Source: a virus
Reading direction: 5' to 3' (one strand)
DNA length: 20,631 bases
IMG/VR virus record: IMGVR_UViG_3300005436_000502
Location: 1 to 20,631 of that record
Shown: piece after piece, positions 3,476 to 20,631 of the stretch
How the letters are laid out: every line of letters begins with the position of its first letter
Position numbering within the stretch: position 1 is the stretch's first letter
Program-made: the position numbers and the translations under genes
Notes under the pieces: generated by a model
The model's database searches: none
Seen by the model: only the letters and a program-made list of their open reading frames with translations
What the model was told of the DNA's origin: nothing

Positions 3476-3961
3476 ATGTCAGAAAATGTTAGTCTTACGC
3501 CCAAACAAGAGCGAGTCATTGGTGAATTACTGCAAGGAAAAACGATTGTTGATTCAGCAAAAGCCTGCGGAGTTGCCGAACAAACCGTCCATCGATGGTT
3601 GAAGGACTCGACGTTTCAGCGTGCGTATGATGAAGCTCGCCAACAATTGCTCAATCATTCCATCACGGCGCTCCAACTCAAGTTTGACAGGGCTGTCAAA
3701 ACGCTCGACCGCCATACGGATGCGCCCCAGACCATTCCGAGGGATCAGATACGGGCGGCTGAAGTCATTGTTGAGAAAACGCTGGAGACAGCCAAACTTG
3801 TCGAGCGGATTACCGAGCTAGAAAATCAACTTGCAGCACAAGAACAAGACAGGATGTATCTGGTGATGTTCGATCTGAGGACAGTCACCAAAGAGGAACG
3901 GGAGACACTGAAGGCTATTCATGATCGCATACGCTCCAGAACAACAACCGAAAACGCATAA
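3476..3961 (+). CDS. terS: Terminase small subunit (helix-turn-helix type)
   Basis: The small terminase subunit recognises phage DNA and recruits the large subunit during head packaging. The 161-residue product has the expected plan: an N-terminal helix-turn-helix around residues 24-44 (IVDSAKACGVAEQTVHRWLK) and a long helical middle. A coiled-coil-like stretch follows near residues 108-123 (AKLVERITELENQLAA), suited to oligomerisation, and then a charged C-terminus. It resembles the phBC6A51-type small terminase proteins. Position directly ahead of, and overlapping by 41 bp, the large terminase gene is the strongest support. The ribosome site is weak. Recognition of its DNA target site cannot be judged from sequence. 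Confidence 0.82.
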   Translation: MSENVSLTPKQERVIGELLQGKTIVDSAKACGVAEQTVHRWLKDSTFQRAYDEARQQLLNHSITALQLKFDRAVKTLDRHTDAPQTIPRDQIRAAEVIVEKTLETAKLVERITELENQLAAQEQDRMYLVMFDLRTVTKEERETLKAIHDRIRSRTTTENA

Positions 3962-5582
3962 CGATATCGAATTCGAGCGCTACCAATGGGAATCCATTTC
4001 GCTCTATGATTTCGTGTGCGAATTCTGGTCAGTGATTGAACCTGGAAAAACGTTCGTGCCAGGAAAGCACATTGAGGCCATATGCGAACACTTAGAAGCA
4101 GTACTCGACGGTCGAATTACCCGTCTTATCGTCAACATGCCTCCAAGACACGCGAAATCGTCCATTATTGGGGTGATGTTCCGGGCATGGGCGTGGGTGA
4201 AGAAATCCTCTATCCGTTTCCTCTGTGCTTCCTATGCGCTTTCTCTTGCCACACGTGATAATGTGAAGGTTCGTCGCTTGTTGCTTTCTCCCAAATTCCA
4301 GCAACATTACGGGCATCTCTTTACCTTGACCCGTGATCAAAATGCGAAAATCAAATTTGAGAATAACCAGCGTGGTTCCAGTCAGGCCGTCAGTTTTGGT
4401 GCAAGCACAACAGGTGAAGGTTTTGATATTGGCATTATCGACGATCCCCATTCTATCGACGAAACTCGTTCTGATGTTACACGTGAAGGAACACTGGAAT
4501 GGTTTAAGGATACATGGTGTACGCGTCCGAATGACCCAAAGACCAGCGCTATGATTGTGGTGGGGCAACGCGTCCACGAGCAGGACTTGAGCGGCTACAT
4601 TTTGAGCGGTGAGACTGGCGAACATTGGGTCCATCTCAACTTGGCAACTGAGTTCGAGCCACTTGATCGATGTGTGACACATCTCCCTGATGGTACAACG
4701 TTCTGGGAAGATTGGCGCGAATTAGAGGGGGATCTGCTCTGGCCTGATCGGTTTCCACGTGAAGTTGTTGAGCGAGCAAAACGACGACATGGACCATTCG
4801 CTTACGCTGCACTCTTCCAGCAACGTCCTACTCCTGCTATCGGCGGCATTTTTGATCAGCGCAATGAGCGGACATTTGAAGAAAACCATGATACCTATTT
4901 CTTGCATACTCCTGTTGGAATCAAACCAGTCAAAAAGGCGGCTTGTGAAGTCTTCATGACGGTGGACCCGGCTATCTCCGAGAAACAAACGGCTGATTTT
5001 ATGGTCATCGGCACCTGGGCAAAGACCCCTATCCGCGATCTGCTCCTCCTCAATATCAGGCGCGGACATTGGGGGCATGCTGACCAGCAAGACGAGATTG
5101 AAGAGGAGTTTAGAGAGTCGGGATCTGAGTATGTAGCTGTTGAGACAGTGGCATATCAGGCAGCGCTTTTTCAAGACTTGCTGGCAAAAGGCATCATGTG
5201 TAAACCGTTCACTCCGAAGTCTGATAAAGTGTTGCGTTCCAACGGTTCGGCTATTTGGCACCGCAATGGCAAGATGTATTTTCGTGCATTGGCAAAATGG
5301 TTGGAAGACTTACGTAAGGAGTTATACAAATTCCCGAAAGCGGCGAAGGATGATCAAGTTGATATGGTTTCCCTTGCTGGCATTGCTGTGCGCTCACGCG
5401 GTCCCCTTTCCGAAGATACTGATGAGGAGGAAATCCCAGAGCCAATTGAGGGTGCAGCAAGCGAAAAAGTCTCTTTCACACAGAACTGGCATGATCCCGA
5501 TGCCCTTGCGCCTGTTGTCATCTCGCAGCGTAAAGAAGTTGACGCATTTGCTTGGATTGAGCGTCATGGAGGGTGGGAATAA
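3921..5582 (+). CDS. terL: Terminase large subunit (ATPase and nuclease)
   Basis: This motor protein pumps DNA into the prohead and cuts it into genome lengths. The 553-residue product shows the ATPase half with a Walker A-like loop at residues 73-81 (MPPRHAKSS; alanine where glycine is usual), a Walker B IIDDPH at 172-177, and a coupling-type segment VGQRVHEQDLSG. The nuclease half has the RNase H-like acidic residues D349 (TVDPA), E408 (VAVET) and D478 or D481 (KDDQVD). Length is normal for the family. The start at 3921 is supported by GAAGG just upstream but overlaps terS by 41 bp; a later start would remove only unconserved residues. It ends one base into the portal start codon. Confidence 0.95.
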   Translation: MIAYAPEQQPKTHNDIEFERYQWESISLYDFVCEFWSVIEPGKTFVPGKHIEAICEHLEAVLDGRITRLIVNMPPRHAKSSIIGVMFRAWAWVKKSSIRFLCASYALSLATRDNVKVRRLLLSPKFQQHYGHLFTLTRDQNAKIKFENNQRGSSQAVSFGASTTGEGFDIGIIDDPHSIDETRSDVTREGTLEWFKDTWCTRPNDPKTSAMIVVGQRVHEQDLSGYILSGETGEHWVHLNLATEFEPLDRCVTHLPDGTTFWEDWRELEGDLLWPDRFPREVVERAKRRHGPFAYAALFQQRPTPAIGGIFDQRNERTFEENHDTYFLHTPVGIKPVKKAACEVFMTVDPAISEKQTADFMVIGTWAKTPIRDLLLLNIRRGHWGHADQQDEIEEEFRESGSEYVAVETVAYQAALFQDLLAKGIMCKPFTPKSDKVLRSNGSAIWHRNGKMYFRALAKWLEDLRKELYKFPKAAKDDQVDMVSLAGIAVRSRGPLSEDTDEEEIPEPIEGAASEKVSFTQNWHDPDALAPVVISQRKEVDAFAWIERHGGWE

Positions 5583-7072
5583 TGCCGAATCTCTTCACAC
5601 GTCTGATGACATCCTTTGCCATGAAACTCAATCCGGCATGGCTACATCTTTCCTCCTACTCGGATACGCCGCAAGCGATCACTATGAACCGCTCATATAA
5701 AACGTATGCAAAGGAAGGCTACAAAAATAGCGATACACTTTATAAGTGTATTTCCTATACCATTCGTAACGGCGCAACTATCCCGCCCAAGCTCTATACA
5801 GATACCACCTGTCAGAAGGAAATCGAACAGCATCCCCTGCTTGATCTGCTCAAGAGGCCCAACCCTGAGCAATCTGGGATCGCGTATCGTGAGGCGGTTC
5901 TCGGGTATAAGTTGCTTGCAGGCAATAGTTTCCAGTACGCTATCCGCGCACATAAGAAAGGTATCCCTGACGAATTGTGGCCCCTACGTCCTGATCGTAT
6001 GCAATTGCTTGTCGTTCCCCAGAAGGGGATAGTGGGGTATCGCCATGAGGATATGGACGTGCCGATTGATCCCGCCAACATCGGGCATACCAAATACTGG
6101 AATCCTGATGACGATAATGAGATCGGTATGGGGATGAGTCCGGTGGAAGCGGCCTCGCTCAATATCGACATGCAAATCGCTGGGAAGAAGTGGAATCTAG
6201 GACTCCTTCAGAACGGCGCACGTCCCCCTGGCATCTGGAAAATTCCAACGCTTATGGGGCCAAATGAACGCCAAAGGTTAGAGGAGAAATTAAACGAGAA
6301 ATTTGGCGGTGCCAAAGGTGCTGGCAAGAGTCCTCTGTTTGATGGAGGACTCGACTGGAAGGGGACAGGTCTGGCACCTGCACAGATGGACTACCTGGAT
6401 AGCCTGAAATTCAACGGTGGAGCTATCGCCAACATTTTTAACATTGCGCCTCAACTCGTGGGCGACTCCAGTGCATCCACCTACGATAATATGAAGCAGG
6501 CGAAGATCTGGTCCTACACTGAAGCGATCTTTCCTGAGCTTGATGACCTCTATGGACTTTGGAATATATGGCTGGTGCCGATGTACGCTGATTTAGCACG
6601 TAGCGGTGCCTATCTCACTTACGATAAAGAGAGCGTTGAGGTCATCCAGGAAATCATTCAAGCGCAGAAAGATGCTCAGACAGAACGCGCCAATAATCTC
6701 TGGCTTTCGGGCTTGCTCACTCAGAATGAGGCGCGGGAGATCGCGGGGCGTCCATCGCATTCACAGGGGGATGTCTACCGTATTGGTGACGTGTTGGTGC
6801 CTGCTGAGCAGTTGCGAGCCTATGCAGAACAAAGCTTGACACTTCCGGCTGCGCCACCGCTACCCCAACCAGAGCCACTTTCAGCCCTGCCTGCTCCCCA
6901 GCACACGGATGCGCCGATACTAGACGAGGGCGTGCAGCAAGAGAGTGAACCAGATCAGATGGAAACGAATACACGCAAAACATATACCGGTCTCTATCCG
7001 GTCGGACCTGCTCCTCGTCCGCGTCAGCAGCAACGAGAAGCGTATCAGCAATTCATGGCGGAGGTATTGTAA
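5582..7072 (+). CDS. Portal protein, HK97 family
   Basis: The portal forms the twelve-fold ring at one capsid vertex through which DNA enters and to which the tail connects. The 496-residue product matches the HK97/SPP1-type portal plan. It has an N-terminal YKNSDTLYKCISYTIRNGAT segment, PLLDLLKRPNPEQSG, a GNSFQYA strand, WPLRPDRMQL, then GMGMSPVEAASLNI and the clip and stem region FNIAPQLVGDSSASTYDNMK. The last 70 residues are proline-rich and probably disordered. I prefer ATG 5582, which overlaps the terL stop and follows GGAGG by 9 bases, over an in-frame GTG at 5573. It is followed without a gap by the prohead protease. Confidence 0.93.
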   Translation: MPNLFTRLMTSFAMKLNPAWLHLSSYSDTPQAITMNRSYKTYAKEGYKNSDTLYKCISYTIRNGATIPPKLYTDTTCQKEIEQHPLLDLLKRPNPEQSGIAYREAVLGYKLLAGNSFQYAIRAHKKGIPDELWPLRPDRMQLLVVPQKGIVGYRHEDMDVPIDPANIGHTKYWNPDDDNEIGMGMSPVEAASLNIDMQIAGKKWNLGLLQNGARPPGIWKIPTLMGPNERQRLEEKLNEKFGGAKGAGKSPLFDGGLDWKGTGLAPAQMDYLDSLKFNGGAIANIFNIAPQLVGDSSASTYDNMKQAKIWSYTEAIFPELDDLYGLWNIWLVPMYADLARSGAYLTYDKESVEVIQEIIQAQKDAQTERANNLWLSGLLTQNEAREIAGRPSHSQGDVYRIGDVLVPAEQLRAYAEQSLTLPAAPPLPQPEPLSALPAPQHTDAPILDEGVQQESEPDQMETNTRKTYTGLYPVGPAPRPRQQQREAYQQFMAEVL

Positions 7073-8637
7073 TGCCAACAAGCACAGTGGCGAGGGAGAC
7101 AAAAACCCTCTCCTTCCAGGTCAAGGCGACCGGAATTGCGACCAATAGCCAGGGGCAAGAGGTCGGGCAAATCGAAGCGTACGGGGCCGTCTTCAATAAC
7201 GTCGATGAGGGCAACGATCGTATTCTCAAGGGTGCTTTCGCACGGACCATCAATAATAGCAAGTCCCGTGCAAAATCTCGCGAGAAGCCCTATCTGCTCA
7301 AGATGCTTTGGCAGCATAAAACTGATGAAGTCATTGGTGGGTGGGCTGATCTCTCTGAGGACGACTTCGGGTTACGTTGCAAGGGGGATGTCCTACTTTC
7401 CACGCAGCGCGGACGCGAATACTATGAATTGGCAAAAGCGGGGATGATCGATGAGTTTTCGATCATCTATGATGTCATGCAAGGTGGCTCGCACTATGAT
7501 AAATCGGGCGTGCGTGACCTCTCAGAGTTACGCCTCTATAGCATCGACCCGGTAACGTTTGCCATGAATGACGAGACCTATCTCGTTGGCGTCAAATCGG
7601 CTACAGAAGTACCTGAACTCAAAACGGCGTGCGGGAGTACGTCAGGGCCGATTGGTCCACGTGATGAGAGTTGGGACGGGTCTGCTGCCAAGCATTGGAT
7701 TTGGGGGAAGGCGCTTGATGACGAGGGCAATGTCAAGCCATCCGTCGCGAAGAAATACTTCATGCGGGTGGATGGAGATCCTAGTCTAAAGGGATCGTAT
7801 GGCTACCCTTTCTGGACCAATGACCATATCAGCGTTGGAGGCGTCAAAGCGGTGGCAAATGCACTGGCTGGGGCGCGTAACGCTGATGCTGGCGAGGATA
7901 CCGCAGGGATGCGTCGTAAGGTAGAACGCCTGTATGGGCGCATTAATAGTAAGTATCCAGATGCCGAACCACTGGTTCCCCCCTGGAAAGACGATGACGG
8001 CAAAAAATTTTCTACCTGGCAGCGTAAGTCCTTTGAAGAACACTACAACGAAGAAATGTCTGAGGACCTTTTGGAAGACTTACAAGAGGTTTGGTATACC
8101 GCTTTTTGTAAAACCATTGTAGATGCCTTCAAAATAGGTGATGAGCCTGAAGTTGACGTCGGCGAAGCCCTGGATGCTTTCAAAATGCGATTTATGAAAG
8201 ATTGGCTTCCTCGCGCTGTTGAGTGCGGACTCTCTGAATATCTCGCCACTGACGACATGGATTCCCCCTTGCGTCTGTATGGATACTACGGTTATATGTC
8301 CAGCCGTCGCCCTCGATCTCAAAAGGCAGGTCGTTCGATATCCGCAGTCAACGCACAACGCATTCAGGACCACATAGATAATCTCAAAGCAATGGCGCGT
8401 GACCATATGAAGTCTATTCACTCGGTTGCCGATGACCTTGCGACGATAACGCAAGGCAGTGAAGCGTCTTACGGGAGCGACGAAGGTACGCCCGATGATG
8501 GACGACAAGAAGGGAAATCAGCCACCTCGTATACAGATACACGTGGCACTCAGGAGCGCCCGTCACCAGACACCGTGAATGAGGATGAAATTTCTGAATT
8601 CCTTCATCAATTGCAACACCTGAAGATCCCAAATTAG
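7072..8637 (+). CDS. Prohead protease (S78/U35 type) fused to DUF6582-like domain and long C-terminal extension
   Basis: This is the maturation protease that trims the capsid scaffold segment. Residues 1 to about 175 fit the HK97-type protease. They include GQIEAYGAVFNNVDEGNDRI, a catalytic-type His at 82 (LWQHKTDEVIGGW), Ser at 130 (IDEFSIIYDV) and ELRLYSIDPVTFAMND around 152-166. Residues about 200-325 resemble the DUF6582-type domain often attached to phage head proteins, with YGYPFWTNDHISVGGVKAV and a later ALAGARNAD. A further charged helical region of nearly 200 residues follows. At 521 residues it is much longer than the roughly 200-residue stand-alone protease. The start follows GGAGG and overlaps the portal stop. 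The protease call is strong; the extension's role is unknown. Confidence 0.88.
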   Translation: MPTSTVARETKTLSFQVKATGIATNSQGQEVGQIEAYGAVFNNVDEGNDRILKGAFARTINNSKSRAKSREKPYLLKMLWQHKTDEVIGGWADLSEDDFGLRCKGDVLLSTQRGREYYELAKAGMIDEFSIIYDVMQGGSHYDKSGVRDLSELRLYSIDPVTFAMNDETYLVGVKSATEVPELKTACGSTSGPIGPRDESWDGSAAKHWIWGKALDDEGNVKPSVAKKYFMRVDGDPSLKGSYGYPFWTNDHISVGGVKAVANALAGARNADAGEDTAGMRRKVERLYGRINSKYPDAEPLVPPWKDDDGKKFSTWQRKSFEEHYNEEMSEDLLEDLQEVWYTAFCKTIVDAFKIGDEPEVDVGEALDAFKMRFMKDWLPRAVECGLSEYLATDDMDSPLRLYGYYGYMSSRRPRSQKAGRSISAVNAQRIQDHIDNLKAMARDHMKSIHSVADDLATITQGSEASYGSDEGTPDDGRQEGKSATSYTDTRGTQERPSPDTVNEDEISEFLHQLQHLKIPN

Positions 8638-8704: not shown

Positions 8705-9982
8705 ATGCCGACACTACACGATATTATGGAGGAAGTGAAAAGCATCTCACATACGCTCAATGACCGTATCGATACGCTGGACAAAGAGCAGAAGCAGCTA
8801 GGTGAGTCGCTTACTTCCAAGACTGGTGAATTCCCCGCTGAGTACAAGGAATCGCTCGACCGCATGCAGCGCGATCTTGACGGACTCATGACAAAGGTCG
8901 ATCAAGCTCGGATTGAAGCGGCTCGACCAAACATCGCAGCCAAGAGTAAAGAGCGCAGTCAGGAACACAAAGCTTTTGTGAAGGCCATGCGCAAACAGGG
9001 CGACATCAACATGCTCTCTGATGACGAGAAGCGGCTCATCGTGCATTCCTATATGCCCGAGGAGCGCAAAGTTCTCTACGCAGGTGATGCCGTGAGTGGT
9101 GGTTTTTTCGCTGCACAAGAGTTCATCGACGAGTTGTTTGAGTACCGGCTGCTTATCTCAAATATGAGAAAGATTTGCCGCGTCCAGACGACTTCAGGCG
9201 AATCGGTCAAAATGCCTTCGCTTGCCGATGATGCCAGCGCGTACATGGCGACTGAACAATCTTCCTACACAGACAGCACCGACCCGACCGTCCATATGCT
9301 CAATATTCCAGTACATGAGGCACGTGGCAAATTGCGCATCTCTGAGCAAAACTTGGAAGATAGCATGTTTGATCTGGAGGCGCTCATCAAAGAGCGCCTG
9401 ATGCTGAAATTTACACAATTGGAGGGGAAGAAGTTTATTACTGGGACGGGGACGGGAGAACCTCGTGGTATCCGCAACTACCCAACGAAAGCCTCTAGTT
9501 CGTACTCGGGTGGCAGCGCAGGAAAGAATAACGTCATTGACGCTATCCCCTACGTCCAGAGTACCGCAGGTGTGGGCAAACTGAATGCGGACGACTTCTT
9601 GAACCCGCTAGGCGACCTCAAAGAAGACTACGAGCCGAATGTAACCTATGTAATGACACGCGGCACGCTCTGGACTGCCCGCCTCTTTAAAGACTCGCAG
9701 AACCGCCCGCTCTGGCAACCCTTTGCCGCCGATGGTCTTCCTGGCACCATCTATGGGCGTCCTTACGTTACAATGCCTGACATGGATGAGATCGCCACTG
9801 GGAACTATCCCCTGATCGTTGGTGATTTCTCGAAGTATATGATCGTGGATCGCCTGACCATGAACATGCGCCAGTTGAATGAGCTGTATGCGGAGCAAGG
9901 GTTGGTCGGATTCATCGCTCGTATTCGCTTCGGTGGCGATGTGTTGATCCCTGAAGCGTTCCGCCTGGTCAAAGTCAACTAA
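8705..9982 (+). CDS. Major capsid protein, HK97 fold, with N-terminal scaffold segment
   Basis: This is the main shell protein. Residues 1 to about 75 are charged and helical (EEVKSISHTLNDRIDTLDKE, later MQRDLDGLMTKVDQAR), the coiled-coil delta domain that acts as scaffold in HK97 and is removed by the protease. The mature part shows FDLEALIKERLMLKFTQLEG and GTGTGEPRGIRNYP (247-260), which are typical of HK97-type capsids. It ends in an FIARIRFGGDVLIPEAFRLVKV segment. At 425 residues, length is normal. The ribosome site GGAG is 6 bases before the ATG, and a hairpin precedes it. The exact cleavage site cannot be read from sequence but should lie between about residues 75 and 125. Confidence 0.93.
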   Translation: MPTLHDIMEEVKSISHTLNDRIDTLDKEQKQLGESLTSKTGEFPAEYKESLDRMQRDLDGLMTKVDQARIEAARPNIAAKSKERSQEHKAFVKAMRKQGDINMLSDDEKRLIVHSYMPEERKVLYAGDAVSGGFFAAQEFIDELFEYRLLISNMRKICRVQTTSGESVKMPSLADDASAYMATEQSSYTDSTDPTVHMLNIPVHEARGKLRISEQNLEDSMFDLEALIKERLMLKFTQLEGKKFITGTGTGEPRGIRNYPTKASSSYSGGSAGKNNVIDAIPYVQSTAGVGKLNADDFLNPLGDLKEDYEPNVTYVMTRGTLWTARLFKDSQNRPLWQPFAADGLPGTIYGRPYVTMPDMDEIATGNYPLIVGDFSKYMIVDRLTMNMRQLNELYAEQGLVGFIARIRFGGDVLIPEAFRLVKVN

Positions 9983-12120: not shown

Positions 12121-12564
12121 ATGGGATTGCCAACGATTGCCATCCAACAGGCTGCTCTTACCCGATATCGAGCAGATACAACCTTGCGAGGACTGCTTGG
12201 GGGAAATGCACCTACATGGAAAATCTTTGACGAGAACGGTGCGCCAACGAATACACCATTCCCGTACATGGTGGTCTATCCCATCAGAGCAGACAGTGGA
12301 ACAGCCCTGACGTTTGCACTTGATGCAGTAGACTCCATCTTCCATGTGAGTGTCTATACACAACAGGGGGCATCAGGTGGACTAGCATTTGCTCGATCTA
12401 TCGTCAAGCGGGTGTATGACACGACACATAAGATCCCGTTTGATCTCTCGTCCTCGGGGTTTACGAACTTCTTTCTGCTGTTTCAGAGTGAGGAGGTGCC
12501 AGAATCACGAGATGGAATCACACAGCAGATAGATGTCAAATTCAAATTGATGACACAGGGGTAG
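12121..12564 (+). CDS. Tail terminator / tail completion protein (DUF3168-like)
   Basis: Tail terminators cap the finished tail tube and join it to the head. The 147-residue product resembles the DUF3168 / SPP1 gp17 group. It has an N-terminal ALTRYRADTTLRGLLGGNAP helix and turn, FPYMVVYPIRADSG, a central VSVYTQQGASGGLAFARSIV, and a closing QIDVKFKLMTQG strand. GGGAGG precedes the ATG, which directly abuts the previous TAG stop. In many phages the gp10-like gene comes before the terminator; here the order is reversed and two small genes lie between. Confidence 0.72.
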   Translation: MGLPTIAIQQAALTRYRADTTLRGLLGGNAPTWKIFDENGAPTNTPFPYMVVYPIRADSGTALTFALDAVDSIFHVSVYTQQGASGGLAFARSIVKRVYDTTHKIPFDLSSSGFTNFFLLFQSEEVPESRDGITQQIDVKFKLMTQG

Positions 12565-14970: not shown

Positions 14971-15411
14971 ATGGAAACAACAGCAGAACTTGATACCAAA
15001 CAAGAGCCATCACCATCACCAAACGGACATGACGAGACGTGGAAGAGCTTTGATAGTGACGACGCATTCTTGCAGCACATCATCTCAAAAGAGCCTGTTG
15101 AGGAGCTTGTAGAGGTGCCTGAATGGGGTGTGAAGGTGTTATGCAAAGCTTTGTACGCTGAAGCGCGTATCGAGGTGGAAGCGCAAGCCTACGATTCCCA
15201 GCACAAGCGCACAAACTACGCTCCACACACCCATCTTGTCGTCATGCATGGTTGCTACAATCCCACAACGGGCAAGCGAGTATTCAACAAAACACACGAA
15301 GAGATATTGAAAGATCCGCGCAACGGTGGCGCTGTTGTGCGCTTGGCGTTTGTCATCCTACGGCTCTCTGGCATGCTCAGTGGTGATGTGGAACACGCGA
15401 AAAAAAACTAG
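14971..15411 (+). CDS. Tail assembly chaperone, short product (gpG-like)
   Basis: Tail assembly chaperones wrap the tape measure protein and guide tube assembly. The 146-residue in-frame product begins METTAELDTKQEPSPS and has a helical body with EVPEWGVKVLCKALYAEARI and a later AVVRLAFVILRLSGM. It lies in the standard position between tail tube and tape measure. Its last codons are AAA AAA AAC TAG, a slippery sequence just before the stop (see the frameshift entry). It is the equivalent of lambda gpG, the abundant form. The ribosome site is weak (AGAAAG). Confidence 0.82.
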   Translation: METTAELDTKQEPSPSPNGHDETWKSFDSDDAFLQHIISKEPVEELVEVPEWGVKVLCKALYAEARIEVEAQAYDSQHKRTNYAPHTHLVVMHGCYNPTTGKRVFNKTHEEILKDPRNGGAVVRLAFVILRLSGMLSGDVEHAKKN

Positions 15412-15740
15412 AGAATGGGACACTGTATGATGCCTACCGGCTCACTGAACGACTCGGCTACCGACATGTACAGGATTTCTTGCGAGATCAGACAGGCGGG
15501 CAATTGGCGGGATGGCTTGCGTACTTACGCATTGATGACGAGGTGCAAACGCAGCGACTCACCGTTGCCTTCATGAGAGCGTTTGGGGGCGGTCAACAAC
15601 CTGTACAACAGCCGGTACAGAGCGAGGAAGTCATCGATACAACTGATCCCGATTTTGTGAAGCACTTTCGAGGGATCAACTACGAAAAGCCGAAGCCGAG
15701 AAGACGGCAACCACAGAACACACAATTCATAACTGGATAA
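14971..15740 (+). CDS. Tail assembly chaperone, long frameshift product (gpGT-like)
   Basis: If ribosomes slip back one base on A-AAA-AAC at 15402-15408, translation continues in the next frame from CTA at 15408 and gives a 256-residue fusion. The extension reads LENGTLYDAYRLTERLGYRH, then helical and glutamine-rich stretches, and ends in a basic PKPRRRQPQ segment. Nothing in this second frame offers a good independent start close to the junction: the TTG at 15480 has no ribosome site, and the region between 15411 and 15480 codes for plausible chaperone residues. In lambda the equivalent T part binds the tape measure, and a similar role is expected here. Confidence 0.85.
15402..15408 (+). promoter_or_regulatory. 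-1 programmed ribosomal frameshift slippery site
   Basis: The heptamer A AAA AAC (X XXY YYZ) lies in the correct zero frame (AAA AAC), inside a run of eight A residues (15400-15407), with the zero-frame TAG immediately after it. The -1 frame is open from before this site to 15740. This matches the classical site used by tail chaperone genes of siphoviruses. I do not see an obvious downstream hairpin or an upstream Shine-Dalgarno-like stimulator; the adjacent stop codon may itself promote pausing. Confidence 0.88.
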
Positions 15741-15762: not shown

Positions 15763-18700
15763 ATGGCAGATGCGGGAGAAGTGAAAGCGAAAGTAACAAT
15801 AGAATATGACGGTTCAGGTATTAAACAGGCAAAAGAAGATTTAGCATCTCTTGCTGAGAGCGCAGGGCGTGTTGGGGAAAGTGCTGGGAAAGCTAGCGAA
15901 GGATTGACAGGGCTTGATGAGCAGATGGTGTCCAATGCGGAAAGTGCGCGAGGGTTCTCTTCTGTATTAAGCGAACTGCCAAAGATTGCAGAAGGTGGGA
16001 CATCAACCATTTCTGAGATGACCGGTATGCTCTCAGAGCATCGGGATGCCATAGAAGAGACAGGGACGGCGTATGAGTCATTCTCTGAGAATGTGCAGAA
16101 AGCGTCAAAGTCGCTTAGGGATGGTGCGGAGAGTGCGAACCTGCAAAATGCCAACCTCAATACCGTTGCGCAAATGTGGAATGATCCAGCGCCTTTTGAG
16201 ATGCTCCAACAACATCTACAGACAACAGGGCAAAGTTGGGCTGATTTCTCGACATCGGTGGGTGAAGATAGAGTTGCTCAAATCGAAGCGCTGAGAAGCC
16301 TCTCTGAAGGGTCGTATCCGTTGCTCAACACCATATCTTCTAATGTCGAAGCAACTGGCACCACCTTTGCAAAATCGGCTGAAAATATGCAGGTATTCAC
16401 TGAGGCAACAGGCAATAGTAGTAAAAATCTCAGTGAAATGGCTGCAAAGACGTATGATGCTGACCAGGCTGTCTCTGAATTTTTAGGGAATAGAAAAGGA
16501 TTTAGCGCGTTCGCCGATCAAGCCCAAACTGCCGATCAAGCCGTTGCTGAGTTTTTAGGAAAAACAAAAGCAGGTATCAATGAGTTTGGTGGAGTAGGTG
16601 AAGCACTGTACGGGCCAATGGAAGGCATAAAACCTGTAAGTCTTGGCGGGGCATTCAGCGAGGTGATGGGCGGCGTTGGAAACATGCTCAACGAGATCGC
16701 GATGCCTTTGATGGCTGCGCAGATGATTGGCATGGCTGTGCAACAAGTCGGACAGGCGATGTACGATAGTGCGGCCATCGCTGAAGGCCCAGCAGCACAC
16801 TCATTTGGCACTTTTACGGGTACTGTCGATGCGTTGGGGCAAAGTTTACAACATGCAACCGGGCAGTTTTCGGAAGGGTTTGGGAAAGCACTACTTCCAA
16901 CGCTGAATGCGCTAAACGATCAAGCATCGAGTGGTGATCTGGGTGGATTAGGGCAGTTTTTCGGTGGACTAGGCTCAACGATAGCCAATCTATCGCTCAT
17001 CACGACTGGTGTTGATCCGCTTGGGGGTATGCACGGACTCATCAATCAGGGTGCGGCACTGCTTGGCTTGCAACAACCATTTCAGGGGCCAGGACCAGTT
17101 TCTCAATCAGAAATTCAATATCAGCAACAAATGGCGGCTCTGCCGCAAACTGTGCAACAGAATGCACGACAATTGCAATATCAGGCGAACTTGACGATGG
17201 CTGATGCCACTAACCCGGAGTGGCTGGCTCAAAACAATGAGAATATGGCAAGTCAGAGAGCTGCTGCATATTTAATCCAAGATTACAATATCAGACACCC
17301 AATACCACAATCACAAGTTATCGCAAATGCACGCTACAACGCATACGCCGCTCAACAGGAACAGAACTATCAGGAACAAATGGCACAAGATGGTGGAGGG
17401 TATGGTCCAGTAGATTTTGGAGGGTTTTGGGGTGGCGTATTTGCAAATAACAATAGTGGATCGAATGCCAGTTCAAACCGCTATGGATCGCGTGCGCCAG
17501 GACAGATGGCAACTGGTGGAGGCTGGCAGGGTAGCGGCGGCGGTGGCTTTGATATCGGTGGTTTTTTCAGTGGCATAGGGAAATCACTAAGCGATATATG
17601 GACTGCGCCAAATGGTGGTGCCGATACGCTCGGCATGCTCTTTAGCCCGCAAGCCTGGGGATTCGGTCAAGCAGCAGCGCCTCAAACATTTACAGGTGGC
17701 TGTTTCGTTGCTGGGACGCCTGTCCTCATGGCTGATGGCACGAGCAAGCCTATTGAGGCATTGCGTGTTGATGAGCAGGTGTTGGCCCATGATGGTACAA
17801 AGCAAGTTCCTGCAACCATTATAGGCTGTATCAGTTTCCCAGCGAAGCAAACCTATGAACTGACGTTCTCAGATGGTAAGACGCTAACAACGACAGACTC
17901 ACACCCCCTTGCAGGGGCGGATGGCTGGAAATCTATTTCACCAGCAAGTACAGCACAAGAAAACCCTGGATTGCCTGTTACCGCGTTGCAAGTTGGAGAC
18001 GAGATTTACACCGCTGATGGCACGCTCTGTCGTCTCCTCTCCATCGAAACGCACGAAATAACAACCGTCTATAACATCACCGTCGATACAGTCCATACCT
18101 ACTACGCCGCTGGCATCCTGGTTCACAACGCGAAACAGGGTAATATCGGATCGCAAGTCGGGCAGCAAGCCTCTGAGCAAATTGGCGATATCCAGTTGCC
18201 GCATATAGACCTCTCTGGCATGGCCGCCCAGTTGGGCGGGAGCTTTTCAGGTATTCAACTACCTCATTTGGACATGTCAGGCATCGCGTCGGGACTCGGC
18301 AGTGCATTTTCTGGTATTTCGCTCCCCCATATCGATATGAGCGGCATTGCAGGCGGGCTTGCAAGTGCATTTACCGGGATATCCATGCCGCCTATTCCCG
18401 ATATTGGAAGTCAGATCAGCGGAGCGCTCGGTAGCATGTTCACTGGTATCTCCATGCCCGCCATTCCTGATATCGGCGGGCAGATAAGTGGAGCATTAGG
18501 GGGCATGTTTGGCGGCATATCGATGCCAAGTATTCCAGATATTGGCGGCATGATTTCAGGGGCCATGACCGGCATGTTCGGGGCCATTACCGTGCCTTCT
18601 CCACCTGAAGTTGGCGCGATGATTTCAGGGGCTATGAGCGGCATGTTTGGGGGTATTGATGTGCCATCACCTCCTGAAGTGGGAGCCATGATTAACGGAG

Positions 18701-19167
18701 CCATGTCAGGAATGTTTGGAGGTATCCAGGTTCCCACGCCGCCCGATGTAGGGGCGATGATTAACGGAGCCATGTCAGGAATGTTTGGTGGGATATCGGT
18801 TCCCTCAGTGCCATTTTTTGCATCAGGTGTGAGCAATTTTGCAGGTGGTGCGGCAGTGGTGGGCGAAGCTGGCATGGAAGTAACTGAGTATAACGGGCGC
18901 TATGCACTGTTCGACCAGGGCGCAACATTTGTCAATTTGCCAGCGGGAGCAAATGTCTATCCAATGCAAGATATGAATTCATATTCATCACCACGCATGA
19001 TGGCACAGGGGACAGGCAGCGGTGGCTTCTCACCTCTTAGCGTTGGAGGTGGCATGCCGCAATCCATCAATGTCAATGTCCATCTGGATTCACAAGCAAT
19101 TTTATCTGCAATAGGAATGCCGTTCGCGCAAGACATCAGGGTCGCGACTGGCAACAGAAGTTATTAA
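15763..19167 (+). CDS. Tape measure protein with internal Hint (intein-like) domain and C-terminal repeats
   Basis: The tape measure protein sets tail length and is threaded through the tube. The 1134-residue product starts after GGAAAGGAGGTGA, the best ribosome site in the window. Residues 1 to about 300 are charged and helical (VKAKVTIEYDGSGIKQAKED at the start). About 307-340 is a hydrophobic stretch with MPLMAAQMIGMAVQQVGQAM. About 440-640 is glutamine- then glycine-rich. Residues 647-789 form a Hint domain, about 810-1010 is an array of nine repeats, and the C-terminus (GVSNFAGGAAVVGEAGMEV, VNVHLDSQAIL) is typical of tape measures. Without the Hint domain 991 residues remain; with about 0.15 nm per residue that would predict a tail near 150 nm. 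The chaperone genes immediately upstream confirm the role. Confidence 0.93.
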   Translation: MADAGEVKAKVTIEYDGSGIKQAKEDLASLAESAGRVGESAGKASEGLTGLDEQMVSNAESARGFSSVLSELPKIAEGGTSTISEMTGMLSEHRDAIEETGTAYESFSENVQKASKSLRDGAESANLQNANLNTVAQMWNDPAPFEMLQQHLQTTGQSWADFSTSVGEDRVAQIEALRSLSEGSYPLLNTISSNVEATGTTFAKSAENMQVFTEATGNSSKNLSEMAAKTYDADQAVSEFLGNRKGFSAFADQAQTADQAVAEFLGKTKAGINEFGGVGEALYGPMEGIKPVSLGGAFSEVMGGVGNMLNEIAMPLMAAQMIGMAVQQVGQAMYDSAAIAEGPAAHSFGTFTGTVDALGQSLQHATGQFSEGFGKALLPTLNALNDQASSGDLGGLGQFFGGLGSTIANLSLITTGVDPLGGMHGLINQGAALLGLQQPFQGPGPVSQSEIQYQQQMAALPQTVQQNARQLQYQANLTMADATNPEWLAQNNENMASQRAAAYLIQDYNIRHPIPQSQVIANARYNAYAAQQEQNYQEQMAQDGGGYGPVDFGGFWGGVFANNNSGSNASSNRYGSRAPGQMATGGGWQGSGGGGFDIGGFFSGIGKSLSDIWTAPNGGADTLGMLFSPQAWGFGQAAAPQTFTGGCFVAGTPVLMADGTSKPIEALRVDEQVLAHDGTKQVPATIIGCISFPAKQTYELTFSDGKTLTTTDSHPLAGADGWKSISPASTAQENPGLPVTALQVGDEIYTADGTLCRLLSIETHEITTVYNITVDTVHTYYAAGILVHNAKQGNIGSQVGQQASEQIGDIQLPHIDLSGMAAQLGGSFSGIQLPHLDMSGIASGLGSAFSGISLPHIDMSGIAGGLASAFTGISMPPIPDIGSQISGALGSMFTGISMPAIPDIGGQISGALGGMFGGISMPSIPDIGGMISGAMTGMFGAITVPSPPEVGAMISGAMSGMFGGIDVPSPPEVGAMINGAMSGMFGGIQVPTPPDVGAMINGAMSGMFGGISVPSVPFFASGVSNFAGGAAVVGEAGMEVTEYNGRYALFDQGATFVNLPAGANVYPMQDMNSYSSPRMMAQGTGSGGFSPLSVGGGMPQSINVNVHLDSQAILSAIGMPFAQDIRVATGNRSY
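16459..16572 (+). repeat. Imperfect direct repeat within tape measure gene, two 42-bp units
   Basis: 16459-16500 and 16531-16572 encode related segments: ADQAVSEFLGNRKG and ADQAVAEFLGKTKA. The DNA has diverged at many third positions, so this is an old duplication with a 72-bp offset. It may reflect helical repeats of the tape measure body or a change of tail length by duplication. Confidence 0.6.
17701..18129 (+). other. Hint domain (bacterial intein-like / mini-intein) inside tape measure protein
   Basis: Residues 647-789 of the tape measure form a complete Hint fold without a homing endonuclease. Block A begins at Cys647 after Gly-Gly (CFVAGTPVLMADG), with IEALRVDEQVLAHDG following. Block B is TTTDSHPL with the Thr711-x-x-His714 pair that drives the N-S acyl shift. 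ALQVGDEIYTADG follows. Blocks F and G are VYNITVDTVHTYYAAGILVH then N789, so the penultimate His788 and terminal Asn789 are present. The next residue is Ala790, not Cys, Ser or Thr. Classical splicing is therefore not expected; known BIL-type domains with such ends mainly cleave at one or both edges. The domain keeps the tape measure frame open on both sides. Confidence 0.92.
18190..18792 (+). repeat. Tandem repeat array in tape measure gene: 3 x 63 bp plus 6 x 69 bp
   Basis: The array encodes three 21-residue units (IQLPHLDMSGIASGLGSAFS-type) followed by six 23-residue units (ISMPAIPDIGGQISGALG-type), 201 residues in all, plus a degenerate tail starting ISVPSVP. The common pattern is I-x-hydrophobic-P-x3 (D/E), then Gly-rich and small hydrophobic residues, then FxG. 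The last two 69-bp units share a stretch of more than 30 identical bases, which shows recent duplication. The repeats are almost uncharged, suggesting a packed or membrane-facing structure rather than the coiled coil of most tape measures. Confidence 0.92.
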
Positions 19168-19179
19168 GGAGCAAATACT

Positions 19180-19221
19180 ATGGGAGCAGCCACGTGTCAG
19201 GAGGGTAAAAATAGTGTCTGA
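19180..19221 (+). pseudogene. 13-codon ORF resembling the start of the downstream structural gene
   Basis: After the tape measure stop, GGAG and 8 bases later an ATG open a frame of 13 codons, MGAATCQEGKNSV, ending at TGA. Aligned without gaps to the start of the gene at 20191 (MGACTAQGQAG), 23 of 36 bases from the ribosome site onward agree, including ATGGGAGC and CACG. It looks like the leftover 5' end of that gene, or of a tandem paralogue, separated from its body by the endonuclease insertion. A 5' exon of an intron-split gene is a second possibility. A chance similarity of two gene starts is the third. Confidence 0.45.
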
Positions 19222-19222
19222 A

Positions 19223-19252
19223 TTGGCTTTACAGGCTGGTTTATGGTATAAT
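19223..19252 (+). promoter_or_regulatory. Candidate promoter for the endonuclease gene
   Basis: TTGGCT (19223-19228) lies 18 bp before TATAAT (19247-19252), which is also preceded by TGG, an extended -10. Transcription would start near 19259. A promoter of its own fits a selfish gene inserted into a late operon. The assignment is by consensus match only. Confidence 0.5.
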
Positions 19253-19296
19253 AAACACATTATTCATGTGTTGCCCCCGCGCTGTTGCAACCAGCC
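19234..19296 (+). other. Nested inverted repeats upstream of endonuclease gene
   Basis: GGCTGGTT (19234-19241) and AACCAGCC (19289-19296) are a perfect 8-bp outer pair. Inside, AACACAT (19254-19260) and ATGTGTT (19266-19272) form a perfect 7-bp stem with a TATTC loop. No T-run follows, so this is not a terminator. It may be a structured leader, an operator over the promoter it overlaps, or part of an intron-like RNA. Confidence 0.6.
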
Positions 19297-19330
19297 GAGG
19301 GCATGGAAACATCTGTTAAGGAGACGTTTC

Positions 19331-20110
19331 ATGGATACCTTACCACCTCATGCCAACAATGACAAGCTCTCACCTTATATCCCTCACGCTTCTGGCATCT
19401 ATAAGATTACCTGTATAGTGAATGGAAAGTTTTATATTGGCAGCGCGGTAGATCTCAATACGCGACGATATGATCATTTCAGCACGCTGAGACGGAACAC
19501 ACACGCTAACCCTCACTTACAACGCGCATTCAACAAGTACGGGAAAGAAGTTTTCACCTTTGAAATTTTAGAGCTGGTGCTTATTCCTGAGATGCTCACG
19601 GCAAGAGAGCAGTATTGGTTCGATAAGTTACGCCCGTTTGGACGGAGGGGCTACAACATTGCCCCTATCGCCGGATCAAACTTGGGGAAACATCACACCC
19701 CAGAAACACGCGAAAAACTAAGGCAGATCCATCTTGGCACGAAAATGCCCCCTGAATCTGTAGAGAAGTCGAGACAAGCCCTCTTGGGAAGAAAACTCAC
19801 TGCTGAACAATTAGAAAAGCGAAGAGGCAGAAAGCATACACCCGAAAGCATTGAGAAGATGAGGGCAAGAAAGCCGACACCTGAGACGCGGGAGAAACTG
19901 AGAGCAGCCAAAAGTTCCCCTGAAGCACGTGAACAACTGAGGCAGAGACAACTCGGCAAGAAGCTATCTCCTGAGACAAAGGAGAAACTTCGGCAGAAAA
20001 ATCTAGGAAAGAAAATGTCGCCTGAAGCAATCAAAAAGTCTTGGGATGTCAGGCGTGCTAAGCAAAAGGAAAGATTATCACAAAACGCTTGTGAAGACAT
20101 ACAACCATAA
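19331..20110 (+). CDS. GIY-YIG homing endonuclease with NUMOD3 repeats
   Basis: The start at 19331 follows AAGGAG by 7 bases; an in-frame upstream start at 19214 has no such site. The 259-residue product has the GIY-YIG nuclease fold at its N-terminus: GIY at 22-24, YIG at 35-37, Arg45/46 and His49 (RRYDHF), Glu93 (REQYW) and Asn109 (YNI). From about residue 115 it carries eight NUMOD3-type units, such as TPETREKLRQIHLG and SPETKEKLRQKNLG, ending SPEAIKKSW. NUMOD3 units bind DNA along the target in I-TevI-like enzymes; eight is more than usual. Such enzymes cut alleles that lack the element and spread by repair. Its place between two structural genes and the nearby gene-start remnant support a mobile origin. 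Confidence 0.93.
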   Translation: MDTLPPHANNDKLSPYIPHASGIYKITCIVNGKFYIGSAVDLNTRRYDHFSTLRRNTHANPHLQRAFNKYGKEVFTFEILELVLIPEMLTAREQYWFDKLRPFGRRGYNIAPIAGSNLGKHHTPETREKLRQIHLGTKMPPESVEKSRQALLGRKLTAEQLEKRRGRKHTPESIEKMRARKPTPETREKLRAAKSSPEAREQLRQRQLGKKLSPETKEKLRQKNLGKKMSPEAIKKSWDVRRAKQKERLSQNACEDIQP

Positions 20111-20140
20111 CATTTTCGGTAATCTAATGTCGTTATCAAT

Positions 20141-20173
20141 TCTCCTCAGATGCCTAAAAACTCTCTGAGGGGA
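20141..20173 (+). promoter_or_regulatory. 10-bp hairpin before the last gene's ribosome site
   Basis: TCTCCTCAGA (20141-20150) pairs with TCTGAGGGGA (20164-20173), including one G-T pair, around a 13-base loop. Only two bases separate it from AAAGGAG (20176-20182), the ribosome site of the gene at 20191. There is no T-run. It could modulate translation of that gene, protect the message end after the endonuclease gene, or form the 3' part of an intron-like RNA. Confidence 0.55.
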
Positions 20174-20190
20174 ATAAAGGAGTTAATTTT

Positions 20191-20631
20191 ATGGGAGCTT
20201 GCACGGCGCAAGGCCAAGCGGGTACAGGAGCATCAGTTTCGTGGGCGAACGCGGAAGGCGGGGTAACTTTTAACCTCGCCGATTCCATCACCTCAACGAC
20301 GCCAATAGCTATCCCGACTAGCACCGGCACCAATTTTTCGTGGATCAAGAACCTCGTGATTGCGGTGACAGTGACAGGGACAACGACACTTTCGAATAGA
20401 ACCATCAAAATGTCAGGCTCACCATCAACTGGCCTTGCGATGTTCTGGAAAGCGGTGGCCGTTGCGTCATATGCGCAAGCAGCATCAGGCAATCGCCCAA
20501 CTGCAAGCGGCTCGAATGGAGCCACACCAGCCGGCTACACGGCCATGACGACAAGCGCTGTACAGTATGACGGTTCAAGCGTGGCGTCATCGAGCACCGG
20601 ACCAAACGGGAGCATGGCGGTTTGTGTTATC
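20191..20631 (+). CDS. Virion structural protein, beginning only (runs off the window)
   Basis: An open frame with AAAGGAG 8 bases before its ATG continues without a stop to the end of the window, giving 147 residues. The N-terminal segment (MGACTAQGQAGTGASVSWAN) leads into strand-rich sequence: FSWIKNLVIAVTVTGTTTLS, then Ala-, Ser-, Thr- and Gly-rich stretches. Composition is like the head-region gene at 10526-11080, and both look like exposed beta-structured virion proteins. After the tape measure one expects distal tail or tail-tip proteins, so a tail surface role is most likely. No specific family is recognised. Confidence 0.72.
   Translation, partial: MGACTAQGQAGTGASVSWANAEGGVTFNLADSITSTTPIAIPTSTGTNFSWIKNLVIAVTVTGTTTLSNRTIKMSGSPSTGLAMFWKAVAVASYAQAASGNRPTASGSNGATPAGYTAMTTSAVQYDGSSVASSSTGPNGSMAVCVI

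Follow-up and report, generated by a model that had tools for sequence, protein, structure and literature searches.

In phages lambda and T5, the tape measure protein (TMP) undergoes cleavage while the tail is being built; T5 pb2 is cut between a hydrophobic stretch and a C-terminal muralytic part, the small piece being kept as a trimer in the tail tip (PMC10038345). The C-terminus of lambda gpH is located in the tip (PMC10721106). In both proteins the cut is proteolytic, with host involvement reported for T5.

Type-A bacterial intein-like (BIL) domains end in His-Asn and possess no nucleophile at the +1 position; they form an N-terminal thioester and cyclise the terminal Asn, with cleavage as the dominant outcome and ligation by the freed amine as a possible one (PMC4031507). 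In described examples, such as Cth BIL4 (2LWY), Tetrahymena BUBL1 BIL2 (6Y75) and the MafB/FhaB type, the domain goes with a toxin or a ubiquitin-like unit. The inteins of phage enzymes (TerL, helicase, polymerase and NrdA) lie within conserved motifs of these enzymes and use a +1 Cys, Ser or Thr for splicing. In polymorphic toxins, a PT-HINT domain (PF07591) is followed by a variable C-terminal part with a toxin domain. The locus described here carries a Hint domain in a phage TMP, where the predicted break lies between a rod with a hydrophobic stretch and a C-terminal piece, as in gpH and pb2, but where the putative cutter is a domain of the TMP itself.

Genomic context and layout of the tape measure protein

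The 20,631-nucleotide stretch of DNA analysed here (the window) comes from IMG/VR, where it is the virus contig IMGVR_UViG_3300005436_000502, and all relatives of its TMP are encoded on metagenomic contigs. Profile searches of its ORFs revealed a siphophage morphogenesis cassette with genes for a terminase (3921-5582), portal (5573-7072), protease (7072-8637) and capsid (8705-9982), and tail completion genes at 12121 and 13096. A tail assembly chaperone gene (phrog_344, E 3.5e-10) is located on the plus strand at 14971-15411. Its 3′ end reads GCG AAA AAA AAC TAG and includes a slippery heptamer, A AAA AAC (15402-15408), before the stop codon; from this heptamer the −1 frame is open into a gpG/gpGT-like ORF at 15480-15740. 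Judged from the sequence, this is the arrangement of lambda gpG/gpGT.

The gene that follows on the plus strand (15763-19167) is an intact ORF for 1134 amino acids with at least 12 distinct relatives in IMG/VR, and by its sequence context it is a lambda-type TMP gene. It encodes a long helical protein and lies after the frameshifting chaperone gene; in relative L006, profiles confirmed that the gene for the major tail protein is followed in turn by those for the chaperone and the TMP. The window protein matched none of the PHROG TMP profiles (phrog_26705, of unknown function, gave E 0.0043), so it is identified as a TMP by its position, helices and repeats. The window TerL shows at most 36% identity in matches to isolates, and GTDB genomes, when searched with the TMP core, yielded no relative. 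The TMP matched 31 GenBank phage records, and seven of these are named TMP or minor tail protein; in these seven the match is confined to the repeats, and in none (0/7) does it include the Hint.

Residues 1-646 (15763-17700, plus strand) comprise a predicted helical rod and a Gly-rich linker that ends with Gly646. The AF2 model of the whole TMP, of low confidence here, places the helices within residues 1-541 and leaves 541-646 unstructured, and 17 of the last 60 residues before the Hint are Gly. Comparison with the relatives showed that residues 308-400 (MLNEIAMPLMAAQMIGMAV...AIAEGPAAHSFGTFTG; 16684-16962, plus strand) form the most conserved core, which is also the most hydrophobic stretch of the protein. 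Behind the Hint, the same comparison revealed repeats in residues 790-1013 (LPHIDLSG..., then MISGAMSGMFGGI...; 18130-18801, plus strand), similar to repeats of Lactobacillus phage TMPs. Residues 1014-1134 (FASGVSNFAGGAAVVGEAGME...LPAGANVYPM...; 18802-19164, plus strand) are a conserved C-terminal module with the motif VGExGxE, common to the window TMP and its relatives and kept with and without a Hint. In the whole-protein model the only confident fold is at residues 645-790, flanked by unstructured stretches, and a small β module is suggested, with low confidence, near 1021-1065.

A free-standing gene for a GIY-YIG endonuclease with NUMOD3 (19214-20110, plus strand, E 2e-10), separate from the Hint domain, lies directly 3′ of the TMP gene. 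It sits between this gene and the next tail gene (window 19170-20200). A start-like fragment of the latter (ATGGGAGCAGCCACG, about 19180) precedes the endonuclease gene and its full start follows at 20191, the pattern that an insertion duplicating or splitting the tail gene would leave. A group I intron around the endonuclease gene was considered, but gave no Rfam match.

A BIL-like Hint domain in the tape measure protein

Residues 647-789 (143 amino acids; 17701-18129, plus strand) form a Hint/BIL-like domain. The sequence-only reading had placed such a domain at exactly these coordinates, in frame within a complete TMP and flanked on either side by typical TMP sequence; this is borne out by the chaperone with its frameshift site, the helices in 1-541, the repeats and the C-terminal module. 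The proposed identity holds as well. Pfam Hom_end_hint matches residues 647-789 above its cut-off (E 2.5e-8), as does TIGR01443 (intein C-terminal region). PT-HINT scored 24.3 bits alone, 27.9 with frame neighbours and 20.3 in another search (cut-off 27.7). Solved BIL and intein chains were matched by sequence and by fold. An AF2 model of the Hint from 22 aligned natural sequences has a mean pLDDT of 89.5, with nearly all values above 90, and its best PDB match in Foldseek is Tetrahymena BUBL1 BIL2 (E 6.5e-12, TM 0.81/0.86); further matches are intein splicing domains and Cth BIL4 (E 2.2e-9).

The active-site residues singled out beforehand are all found in the intact ORF. The N-terminal nucleophile Cys647 (block A, 17701-17703) follows Gly-Gly, block B reads T711-D-S-H714 (17893-17904), and block G, L786-V-H788-N789 (18118-18129), ends the stretch GILVHN with the Asn cyclisation site. 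The +1 residue is Ala790 (18130-18132), which is no nucleophile; all these codons are on the plus strand. The domain thus has the N-terminal Cys, TxxH block, C-terminal His-Asn and lack of Cys, Ser or Thr at +1 of type-A BILs, which also provide the best fold match, and like these it is inserted in a region of the host protein that varies in length and sequence and is Gly-rich in most relatives. Unlike the type-A BIL hosts, the host protein is a phage TMP, and what follows is repeats and the TMP C-terminal module. With phage inteins the domain shares the fold and active-site blocks, but class 1 inteins have Cys, Ser or Thr at +1 and occupy conserved motifs, often with an endonuclease, whereas here a 143-residue domain without endonuclease is found in a linker before Ala790. 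An ordinary intein does not fit this +1 residue and site, although splicing as such is considered below. PT-HINT domains may by profile belong to the same Hint subfamily, with scores on either side of the cut-off, and are also followed by a variable part. However, a profile search of residues 790-1134 found no toxin families, and this part is common to Hint-free TMPs, so that delivery in the style of polymorphic toxins was rejected.

Conservation among relatives and a Hint-free allele

Sequence collections were scanned with short patterns, and the counts of relatives and loci are lower bounds. At least 12 further distinct TMP relatives span the Hint site and at least 11 carry a Hint at the same place; the set consists of L002-L006, L021, L026, L029, L034, L039, the L287-L291 type and the near-identical, Hint-free L030-L033. 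Of the 143 positions, 25 do not vary across the 12 Hint alleles; they include C1, T65, H68, H132, H142 and N143 of the domain (including Cys647, T711, H714, H788 and N789 of the window). These six catalytic residues are all kept in alleles that are 45-74% identical to that of the window (naive p 1.7e-5, a value that ignores kinship). The loss of block residues in relatives, named in the sequence-only reading as an outcome that would refute a self-processing Hint, was thus not seen. Every one of the 12 alleles has Gly immediately before Cys. The residue after Asn is Ala in six, Ile in two, Lys in three and Ser in one (L287-L291). The lack of Cys, Ser or Thr at +1, noted earlier for the window, thus extends to ten of the 11 other lineages. 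Absence of these residues in 11 of 12 lineages fits type-A BILs, which mostly cleave (PMC4031507), and the Ser, as far as sequence can tell, shows how thin the boundary between BILs and inteins is in this TMP family. A Lys is present at +1, +2 or +3 in all 12 TMP alleles (AK, IK, SK, K, IAK; 18130-18135 in the window), the remaining flank being variable.

Mean identity is 57% for the Hints, 34% for the N-flanks and 37% for the C-flanks, and in 54 of 55 pairwise comparisons the N-flank has diverged further than the Hint. Between the window and L003, dN is 0.17 in the Hint vs 0.50 in the N-flank; dS values of 1.26 and 1.91 are high and make dN/dS rough. Profiles, fold and conservation rule out a chance motif, and a dead domain is ruled out by the catalytic residues in 12/12 alleles and the low dN. 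Hint distances do not correlate with C-flank distances and at least three types of C-terminal repeats occur behind the same Hint, which indicates that the C-terminal parts are exchanged or evolve fast; the C-terminal module is present in every complete relative. In a tree of 133 Hints, eleven from the TMP family of the window form one clade (SH-aLRT 100), as under shared descent.

Two features of the relatives concern TMP length. The TMPs of L287 and L289 (1008 and 992 amino acids) are identical wherever aligned; the 16-residue difference is probably one C-terminal repeat unit, from natural copy-number change or an assembly effect. The TMP of L034 (2686-7245; about 1520 amino acids) contains the N-part segment NxxAFQDxxxxPxxFxxLxxYLxxTGQTxxxFxxSIG several times over, an apparent extension of the ruler by duplication.

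The search for Hint-free alleles at the same position, suggested in the sequence-only reading, was successful. L033 is continuous across the site (...GGLFGGNAQT-EAIASRDVSHLSTAGFGGSLTN-SGVGTQQVELSHTFTA...), whereas its sister L004 reads ...GGLFGGNPQT-PSPVGG[Hint]AKGAMTA-SGTGTEQVTLAHTFTA.... In a tree of the flanks, for which no root was inferred, L033 is nested within Hint-carrying sequences (support 96/98 and 100/100), best read as loss of the Hint. The existence of the L030-L033 allele implies that the Hint is dispensable and cleavage not obligatory in this family; evidently, to judge from this allele, the TMP can function as one chain. An HNH-like endonuclease ORF, recognised by eye, is located just upstream of the Hint-free TMP gene in L031 (5039-5773).

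Hint domains in other tape measure families and phage proteins

The TMP relatives, the Hint-free allele and the recurrence of Hints in other TMP families go beyond the sequence-only reading. PHROG TMP profiles matched L063 (4.6e-63), L045 (2.4e-33) and the 5′-partial L196 (3.9e-9), in which 92, 92 and 114 residues, respectively, follow the Hint. L240, with 78 residues after the Hint, is followed by a distal tail protein gene (1e-7). It is a homologue of L236 (4e-50), in which 180 residues follow the Hint, and also of a Paracoccus phage protein annotated as TMP (2e-4). L045 and L063 share a homologous N-part (2.5e-23), which leaves at least three further N-terminal TMP families (L045/L063, L236/L240 and L196). 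In each of the five proteins the Hint directly precedes a C-terminal tail of 78-180 residues; tails such as AAQGGQVYAGKPTLVGEAGQEVFVPP (L240) resemble the module of the window, with weak likeness between families (E 0.02-0.03). Because TMP Hints from outside the window family are scattered in the tree of 133 Hints, which has low resolution here, Hints probably entered TMP families independently. Among the matches listed in the pattern scans, L063 found only itself, and L045 itself and two weak partial matches. Three other Hint matches examined belong to a polymerase-like intein, an RHS protein and a toxin-like protein. The searchable, largely open-access journal literature yielded no report of a Hint within a TMP; the Hint is a known domain in a new and recurrent setting.

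Hints are common in other phage proteins (L040-L109, L196-L272), of which several are tail proteins (phrog_2048, phrog_33450), and also occur in phrog_358 proteins of unknown function. They are often found at the extreme C-terminus after a Gly run and often in tandem (VHN-K-CFIAGT). Most have Lys at +1, which is also favoured in cellular matches. The tail-fibre-like proteins of L012-L014 (ORF 5077-6498) end in a hedgehog-like Hint that starts with CFAPGT and lacks the terminal His-Asn.

Proposed self-processing and alternative explanations

From the domain, its fold and active site, its position and its co-occurrence with TMPs, recurring across TMP families, we infer activity, cleavage rather than splicing, and the fate and use of the pieces. 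Residues 647-789 are probably an active type-A BIL autoprocessing Hint that mainly cuts at both of its ends, between the rod and the C-terminal part. The Hint would sit in a flexible linker between the helical rod (1-646) and the repeats with the tip module (790-1134). After folding, Cys647 would form a thioester with Gly646, and Asn789 would cyclise; because Ala follows Asn, cleavage at both ends would be the main outcome. The rod would be released as 646 residues, the Hint as a free domain of 143, and the C-terminal piece, which would remain with the tail tip, as 345. The Hint would thereby take over, as part of the chain, the task that proteases perform on lambda gpH and T5 pb2. More speculatively, as the sequence-only reading suggested, it could replace protease-dependent trimming and time release of the tip end or the setting of tail length.

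The Hint might instead splice out and leave a continuous TMP of 991 residues, by BIL-type ligation through the freed amine or, in the lineage with +1 Ser (L287-L291), by class 1 splicing. Type-A BILs can ligate their flanks in the absence of a +1 nucleophile (PMC4031507), L033 is continuous across the site, and every complete relative keeps the C-terminal module. We nevertheless regard splicing as rather unlikely, since the reported main outcome for the +1 Ala, Ile or Lys of 11 of 12 lineages is cleavage and a need for exact re-ligation is not obvious in a variable linker. Processing could also be one-sided, by Asn789 cyclisation or N-terminal thioester hydrolysis only, such that the Hint stays on one piece, perhaps as plug or anchor of the tail tip. 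Cleavage at one end is common among BIL domains (PMC5874633) and the Hint itself is well conserved, but Cys647 and block B vary no more than block G does, which suggests that both half-reactions are selected and makes this outcome improbable.

Equally improbable is a selfish mini-intein that has no role for the phage and homes with the help of nearby endonuclease genes. The GIY-YIG gene directly after the TMP gene, the HNH-like ORF that precedes the Hint-free TMP gene in L031 and the existence of a Hint-free allele would agree with homing, and introns with homing endonucleases often interrupt TMP genes (PMC10448857). However, the Hint contains no endonuclease, its site is a variable linker instead of a conserved motif, and most lineages lack a +1 nucleophile. 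Moreover, L004 and L006 have no endonuclease among ORFs of at least 120 amino acids just after the TMP gene, the Hint-free allele is nested among Hint-carrying ones as after a loss, and other TMP families have a Hint at a comparable position. Cleavage at both ends by a type-A BIL thus remains our preferred reading. The wider proposal is more tentative: self-processing TMPs may be a convergent class, with a Hint acquired independently in front of the C-terminal module by siphophages that are not related, and with the cut serving tail maturation. On this view, a folded 16-kDa domain in each TMP chain would probably be too bulky to stay inside the tail tube, and its removal would therefore either control the growth of the tube or come after it.

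Implications for tape measure processing

How and why TMPs such as lambda gpH and T5 pb2 are cut in their C-terminal part is a long-standing question. A TMP that naturally carries its own putative cutter, with cuts predicted to the residue and a Hint-free allele makes this question directly testable, as point mutations would abolish the cut and leave proteases untouched. The same arrangement in at least three other kinds of TMP suggests, from the sequences at hand, that some phages process the TMP without a separate protease. Recurrence over several TMP families would show that a chain break directly ahead of the C-terminal module has a use of its own.
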